32,992 nucleotides of DNA from an uncultured bacterium. Its GTDB lineage: Bacteria; Patescibacteriota; Minisyncoccia; Phycocordibacterales; UBA9973. A program made the position numbers and the translations under genes. The first letter of the stretch is position 1; each line of letters opens with the position of its first letter. Shown here one piece after another: positions 951-27,916 of this stretch. The notes below the pieces were generated by a model. That model was not told the DNA's origin and ran no database searches. It saw only the letters and a list, made by a program, of their open reading frames with translations. The DNA lies in contig CAITSA010000009.1 of the NCBI GenBank assembly GCA_903894955.1, positions 1 to 32,992 on the forward strand. The letters run 5' to 3'.

Positions 951-978
951 AAGGCCTCGGAAAAGGAAATTCGTCGGC
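951..978 (-). terminator. Rho-independent-like hairpin AAGGCC…GGCCTT with T-tract on the minus strand
   Basis: Inverted repeat aaggcctcgg…tcggcctt; minus strand reads GGCCTTTTATTTT. Convergent with rpmB. Confidence 0.55.
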
Positions 979-1020
979 CTTAAGCATAGGGGTACTAATA
1001 CCACCAACCAATTCCTATCT

Positions 1021-1095
1021 CTAGGAAAGAGGAGTCGAACCTCTACGTGATAGTGGGTTCCCAGCCCACAACGCACCCCGGGAAACACCTCCTTT
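1021..1095 (-). ncRNA. tRNA-like element (Pro GGG-like anticodon arm, canonical T-arm, non-canonical D-arm and weak acceptor)
   Basis: Minus strand contains GTGGG-CTGGGAA-CCCAC and AGAGG-TTCGACT-CCTCT; acceptor only about 5 bp (AGGAG/TTCCT); no normal D stem. Confidence 0.45.
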
Positions 1096-1152
1096 CGAAA
1101 ATCGATTCATTATTTATATAGCACATATTAATTCTATCTGCAATATTAAATT

Positions 1153-19148: not shown

Positions 19149-19241
19149 TCTTTAGTTTTAACAAGAAAAATATTCCCTGTAAAGTGAACGACTTGTGGAT
19201 AAAATCCAGAAACTATATTATAAACCTATCAAACTTAATTG

Positions 19242-19313
19242 GGTGCCTATTCGGTTATGCTCCGAATCTAAAAGCTCCACAAGCTTTTGTGCTACTATTA
19301 CACCATAGGCACC
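19242..19313 (-). tRNA. tRNA-His (GUG) with unusual T-loop
   Basis: Minus strand GGTGCCTATGGTGTAATAGTAGCACAAAAGCTTGTGGAGCTTTTAGATTCGGAGCATAACCGAATAGGCACC; 8-bp acceptor incl. G-1:C73, anticodon loop TTGTGGA; CCA not encoded. Confidence 0.8.
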
Positions 19314-19579: not shown

Positions 19580-19591
19580 AAATTTACTTTG

Positions 19592-19675
19592 TGCGCAGGA
19601 GAGGATTCGCACCTCCACGCCCTTAACGGGCACCAACACCTCAAGCTGGCGAGTCTACTGTTTCTCCACCTGCGC
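19592..19675 (-). tRNA. tRNA-Leu (GAG)
   Basis: GCGCAGG…CCTGCGC acceptor, anticodon arm CCAGC-TTGAGGT-GTTGG, long variable arm, T-arm GGAGG-TGCGAAT-CCTCT; no encoded CCA. Confidence 0.9.
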
Positions 19676-27834: not shown

Positions 27835-27916
27835 GGAGGGTTCGCCTAATGGTATGGCAATAGTCTTGAAAACTATCGGGAGCAATCCCTTAGAGGTTCG
27901 ACTCCTCTACCCTCCG
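27835..27916 (+). tRNA. tRNA-Ser (UGA)
   Basis: GGAGGGT…ACCCTCC acceptor, ATAGT-CTTGAAA-ACTAT, class II variable arm, AGAGG-TTCGACT-CCTCT. Confidence 0.95.

Follow-up and report, generated by a model that had tools for sequence, protein, structure and literature searches.

A tRNA-like hairpin module between rpmB and a DEAD-box RNA helicase gene in an uncultured UBA9973 bacterium, possibly a truncated tRNA relic

Hairpins of the rpmB–helicase spacer

The minus strand of a short intergenic spacer in the window (the whole 32,992-nt stretch of DNA analysed here) contains successive hairpins, two of which look like the arms of a tRNA, and the question raised is whether these belong to a tRNA gene, to the remains of one, to some other RNA or to nothing in particular. 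The window comes from a 627-kb assembly of 31 contigs that is ∼77% complete and whose small size, gene content and relatives suggest a member of the Patescibacteria. rpmB (plus strand) and the helicase gene (minus strand) converge on the spacer, with the helicase gene lying upstream of the tRNA-like element on the same strand. The features referred to below are as follows.

702–950, plus: rpmB (ribosomal protein L28), Pfam PF00830
951–981, minus: weak terminator-like hairpin, AAGGCC...GGCCTT followed by TTATTTT, from the fold (z −1.69)
989–1079, minus: possible closing helix P1, GGGGTGC (1079–1073) with GTACCCC (995–989), from the minimum-energy fold
991–1002, minus: hairpin GGTA-TTAG-TACC, from the sequence; competes with P1 and P3
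1012–1027, minus: GNRA-type hairpin TTCCTA-GAGA-TAGGAA, from the sequence and the fold
1028–1044, minus: T-arm-like hairpin AGAGG-TTCGACT-CCTCT, from the sequence and the T-arm motif
1045–1052, minus: 8-nt "variable region" TATCACGT, from the sequence and the fold
1053–1069, minus: anticodon-arm-like hairpin GTGGG-CTGGGAA-CCCAC (5 bp, 7-nt loop, T33, GGG, A37)
1086–1095, minus: Shine-Dalgarno-like 10-mer AAAGGAGGTG, from the sequence
1111–1120, minus: −10-like box TATATAAATA, from the sequence; the −35 candidate TTGCAG, 17 nt further upstream, is poor
1153–2466, minus: DEAD-box RNA helicase gene, Pfam PF00270 and PF00271

Every hairpin named in an earlier note on this DNA was present on the minus strand as written. 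The GNRA-type hairpin abuts the T-arm with zero gap, and its 5′ strand occupies the expected site of an acceptor 3′ strand; as the note had described, this strand pairs with the downstream TAGGAA, and neither the acceptor partner CTAGGAA nor a D-arm is found upstream of the element. The T-arm had been called almost identical to that of the tRNA-Ser at 27835, here assigned as tRNA-Ser(TGA), with which it indeed shares 18 identical nt within a 24-nt blastn match at 92%. Of the flanking signals proposed, the TATAAAT-like −10 box is present (∼1120–1113), as are the GGCC...GGCC terminator hairpin and its T-tract, but a consensus scan of 900–1200 called neither a promoter nor a terminator.

The minimum-energy fold of 985–1082 was one closed structure nesting the hairpins, in the order P1 (GGGGUGC/GUACCCC), anticodon-like arm, P3 (UAUCAC/GUGGUA), T-arm and GNRA hairpin; the GGTA-TTAG-TACC hairpin does not form part of it. 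P3 comprises the first six bases of TATCACGT paired with GTGGTA at 1004–999 (pair probability 0.33–0.38), and the corresponding values were 0.4 for P1 and 0.95 for the anticodon-like arm at 1053–1069. The folding energy of the closed structure is ordinary: the 985–1082 core gave a z-score of −1.29, with 21 of 200 shuffles equally good, and 951–1110 (160 nt) gave −0.12, a stability like that of its shuffles, as compared with −2.29 for the plus strand.

Comparison with tRNA genes and with chance

ARAGORN detected no tRNA in the region at its default threshold, with or without introns, and a canonical or intron-containing tRNA was rejected on this ground; when the threshold was lowered, the acceptor and D stems were drawn mismatched. 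No Rfam family scored above its cut-off in the region. The tRNA model (RF00005) reached 22.9 bits against a cut-off of 29, covering model positions 23–71 of a stretch that had been pre-cut at the anticodon arm, and the tRNA-Sec model (RF01852) reached 19.2 bits against a cut-off of 47, with an E value of 0.10 for the whole genome and a score below that of many ordinary tRNAs of the same genome. Of the features that define RF00005, the T-arm with a TTCRANY loop (1028–1044) and the 5-bp anticodon arm with a 7-nt loop, U33 and a purine at 37 (1053–1069) are present, and the 7-bp acceptor stem with its 5′ strand upstream and the D-arm are absent. As judged from the sequence, the element is not a working tRNA gene, based on the ARAGORN result, the sub-threshold models, the absent acceptor partner and D-arm, the 8-nt variable region and the lack of G37. 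A tmRNA, standard or permuted, was also rejected, since ARAGORN -m returned nothing and neither RF00023 nor RF04321 matched in the region.

The earlier note had left the choice between a tRNA-Pro(GGG) in decay and a distinct ncRNA with borrowed tRNA pieces. Both the sub-threshold RF00005 match and the motif statistics given below support a 3′ part derived from a tRNA, but the assignment of the anticodon-like arm to Pro is weak. The tRNA-Pro genes of the window genome and of a near-complete relative, G131, carry G37 (loops TTTGGGA and TTCGGGA), whereas the element carries A37, and its likeness to any candidate donor tRNA ends with the T-arm. The anticodon arm is unlike that of any tRNA of either genome, so that none of these could be named as donor. 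The 38 tRNAs detected in the ∼77% complete assembly include Pro(TGG) and Pro(CGG) and no tRNA-Pro(GGG), and Pro(TGG) was the sole tRNA-Pro detected in G131.

Some other tRNA genes were unusual in their own right. The tRNA-His gene at 19241–19312 (minus) has the T-loop AGCATAA in place of TTCRANY, the loop of the G131 tRNA-His being canonical, and a TGCRA T-loop (G for T at position 55) was seen in tRNAs Leu(GAG), Glu(TTC), Cys(GCA) and Met(CAT), e.g. at 19591–19675 (minus). A group I intron (RF00028, 66.8 bits) lies between tRNA-Val and tRNA-Gly genes at L130 1215–1454 (minus).

The motif GGTTCRANTCC has 20 sites in the assembly, 19 of them in tRNA genes and the only other in the T-arm at 1028–1044; its reversed control gave no matches. 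About one site is expected from base composition alone, so the count of 20 is by itself weak evidence. Outside tRNAs, a TTCRA loop on a perfect 5-bp stem was found six times in 359 kb of the window genome and twice in 400 kb of G131; among these hairpins, only 1028–1044 is GG-closed and only 1028–1044 has an anticodon-like arm upstream (1053–1069), no other orphan T-arm in the two sequence sets being preceded by such an arm at a distance of up to 25 nt. The expectation for a perfect GG-closed T-arm is 0.1 per 359 kb. Forty first-order Markov genomes (14.4 Mb), simulated with genome-wide composition whereas the GC content of the spacer is locally higher, yielded four GG-closed T-arms, none of them accompanied by an anticodon-like arm or bordered by a 6-bp hairpin. 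With 19 of 20 motif sites in tRNA genes and the module in none of the 40 simulated genomes, a chance origin of the T-arm and anticodon-arm pair is unlikely.

The element and its spacer in relatives

Searches with blastn found no homologue of the element in 148 family genomes or in 387 class genomes: apart from the self-match, there were matches to the T-arm and short ones attributable to chance; the match in L006 was dismissed as lying inside unrelated sequence. A single-sequence covariance model of the element had no matches in the other 147 family genomes. Across the class it gave five weak hits (sub-0.1), four overlapping tRNA-Leu or tRNA-Gln genes and one being a tRNA-Leu-like piece in L129; none was accepted as a structural homologue, all five being carried by the T-arm. 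Exact patterns of the element were absent from GTDB r220 and from IMG/VR, blastn found nothing in plasmids and, in phages, only an insignificant match to Prevotella Lak phages (E 0.6). With no homologue there is no covariation to draw on. The earlier note had named a lack of conservation or covariation in relatives as telling against its proposal, and the absence of conservation found here goes against the distinct ncRNA, which is likewise without support from covariation or folding energy.

rpmB was detected in 58 of 60 genus genomes. In the 24 relatives with both rpmB and the helicase gene on the fetched piece, the spacer ranged from 2 nt to 1244 nt and contained a short terminator hairpin, small ORFs or a Y1 transposase, and never the element sequence, which is also absent from the nearest relatives (by rpmB). 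Across the genus, the position of the spacer is conserved and its content variable. The L011 spacer carries a Y1 (IS200-like) transposase-type gene (Pfam PF01797), and the L019 copy looked very similar by eye.

Two further readings were considered and set aside. The similar T-arm at 27885–27908 is inverted and both flanking genes are syntenic, so no integrated element is bounded by the two copies, as would be the case for an attachment-site relic. A REP-like repeat was rejected because blastn found no second genomic copy except the T-arm match in tRNA-Ser.

Possible origins and comparison with known systems

The reading that we favour, with confidence evenly divided between it and all others, is that 1020–1069 (minus) is a truncated, tRNA-derived relic. 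On this view a tRNA lost its 5′ half, and the anticodon arm, T-arm and acceptor 3′ strand are its remaining 3′ part, in a spacer that holds lineage-specific sequence in many relatives. Any transcription of the relic would probably be as part of the helicase mRNA, in the 3′ untranslated region, and it would not function as a tRNA. This is suggested by a T-arm motif found nowhere else outside tRNA genes in the assembly, by the absence of the module from the 40 Markov genomes, by the 22.9-bit RF00005 match together with the missing acceptor partner and D-arm and the null ARAGORN result, by the lack of homologues in a variable spacer and by a comparable tRNA-Leu-like piece beside an intact tRNA-Leu in another species of the class. 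Against it, every covariance score is below its curated cut-off (22.9 against 29; 19.2 against 47, E 0.10 genome-wide), the anticodon arm resembles no tRNA of the window genome or of G131 and the variable region is 8 nt long. Both arms are still perfect, which argues against old decay, and a perfect 6-bp hairpin following the T-arm without a gap is not predicted by a plain relic.

The main rival, which we consider unlikely, is a functional lineage-specific structured RNA with a tRNA-like part, either a small RNA or an element of the helicase 3′UTR. P1 would close a fold of anticodon-like arm, T-arm and GNRA hairpin, which RNase P or tRNA-binding proteins might recognize. The nesting of the hairpins in one closed minimum-energy fold, all three local hairpins being perfect, and the flanking weak −10-like box and terminator-like hairpin are what such an RNA would lead one to expect, and a bacterial pseudo-tRNA acting outside translation, with a deletion phenotype, offers a precedent as described in PMC3399842. 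Its folding energy is nonetheless ordinary (z −0.12 over 160 nt and −1.29 for the core, against −2.29 for the plus strand), the P1 and P3 helices have probabilities of only 0.33–0.40, no homologue is available to provide covariation and the scan found no promoter or terminator. The near-zero fold z-score would sit well with an ordinary, somewhat GC-rich spacer whose hairpins resemble tRNA arms by coincidence, as would the whole-genome E value of 0.10 for the tRNA-Sec match and the frequency of chains of three perfect hairpins, of which 78 occur in 759 kb of the window genome and G131 (∼1 per 10 kb). Coincidence is rendered improbable by the 0.1 GG-closed perfect T-arms expected per 359 kb and by the lack of any such T-arm with an anticodon-like arm in 14.4 Mb simulated at genome-wide, not local, composition.

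The acceptor-like strand that immediately follows the T-arm pairs with the downstream TAGGAA, which led us to test permutation, i.e. a circularly permuted or two-piece tRNA gene, or a tRNA-like RNA of that design. A tetraloop would cap the T-arm and acceptor helix, with the 5′ half downstream of it: first would come the 3′ part (anticodon arm, T-arm and TTCCTAG), then a tiny loop, then the 5′ part, made up of ATAGGAA and a D-arm within TTGGTTGGTGGTATTAGTACC. The acceptor strands do pair across the short loop (TTCCTA-GAGA-TAGGAA; six pairs, the seventh being A-G), and known permuted tRNA genes have intervening sequences of 1–74 nt (PMC3978253). When the pieces were joined in permuted order and given to ARAGORN at the default threshold, it accepted 139 of the 154 junction variants; with shuffled tails the mean was 39, and none of the 500 shuffles reached that number. 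The best score was 113, the median for tRNAs of the genome being 118. That best score was, however, equalled by 9 of 500 shuffled tails, and ARAGORN accepts arbitrary junctions here too and therefore discriminates poorly. A permuted-tRNA covariance model, purpose-built from 18 tRNAs of the lineage, aligned over its full length with 10.8 bits (E 0.0022 in 301 bases), a match of which ∼2.6 would be expected by chance when scaled to 359 kb, and a scan of the 359 kb with this model did not list the site. The permuted cloverleaf would further contain an A1-G72 mismatch, G instead of A14 and A37, and the arrangement is present in no relative. To our knowledge, a tRNA-splicing endonuclease is not to be expected in bacteria, and we regard permutation as the least probable of the origins considered. 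Barely more credible is a small protein gene, with AAAGGAGGTG as the ribosome-binding site of a GTG-started ORF of ∼48–51 codons. The 10-mer is complementary over its whole length to the usual 3′ end of 16S rRNA and occurs once in 359 kb, both strands counted, a frame is open from 1088 to 933, and small ORFs are found in the spacer of other relatives; but the ORF matched nothing in Pfam or PHROG, crosses the terminator-like hairpin into antisense rpmB and has no DNA homologue in relatives, leaving no convincing ORF behind AAAGGAGGTG.

As a truncated relic, the element would be a minor case, since tRNA relics and pseudo-tRNAs are already known in bacteria. Should a processed transcript be shown, the element could turn out to be a tRNA-like RNA peculiar to this lineage. 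With much lower probability it could be the first bacterial permuted tRNA, and this, if true, would bear on the origin of permuted tRNA and tmRNA genes.

Relative to a bacterial tRNA (RF00005), the element has the 5-bp T-arm with its TTCRANY loop, a 5-bp/7-nt anticodon-like arm with T33 and a purine at 37, and an acceptor-like strand directly after the T-arm, but differs in lacking the acceptor 5′ strand and the upstream D-arm, in its 8-nt variable region and in scoring under the gathering cut-off. With the permuted tRNA genes known from red and green algae and the archaeon Thermofilum (PMC3978253), it has in common a 3′ part, a short intervening loop, a possible 5′ part and acceptor strands that pair across the loop; it differs in having no supported D-arm, no visible bulge-helix-bulge junction, a failing permuted covariance model and a bacterial host. 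tRNA-Other of Bacillus cereus, a predicted pseudo-tRNA with a deletion phenotype as described in PMC3399842, is likewise a tRNA-like bacterial RNA without a role in translation, although the present element lacks a full cloverleaf and is known from sequence alone. The tRNA-Leu-like piece at L129 1475–1552 has no recognizable 5′ half and lies directly behind an intact tRNA-Leu(GAG), a neighbour that points to its origin, whereas the window element has no tRNA neighbour; both are tRNA 3′ parts with a T-arm and a sub-threshold RF00005 score (19.2 bits for the L129 piece).
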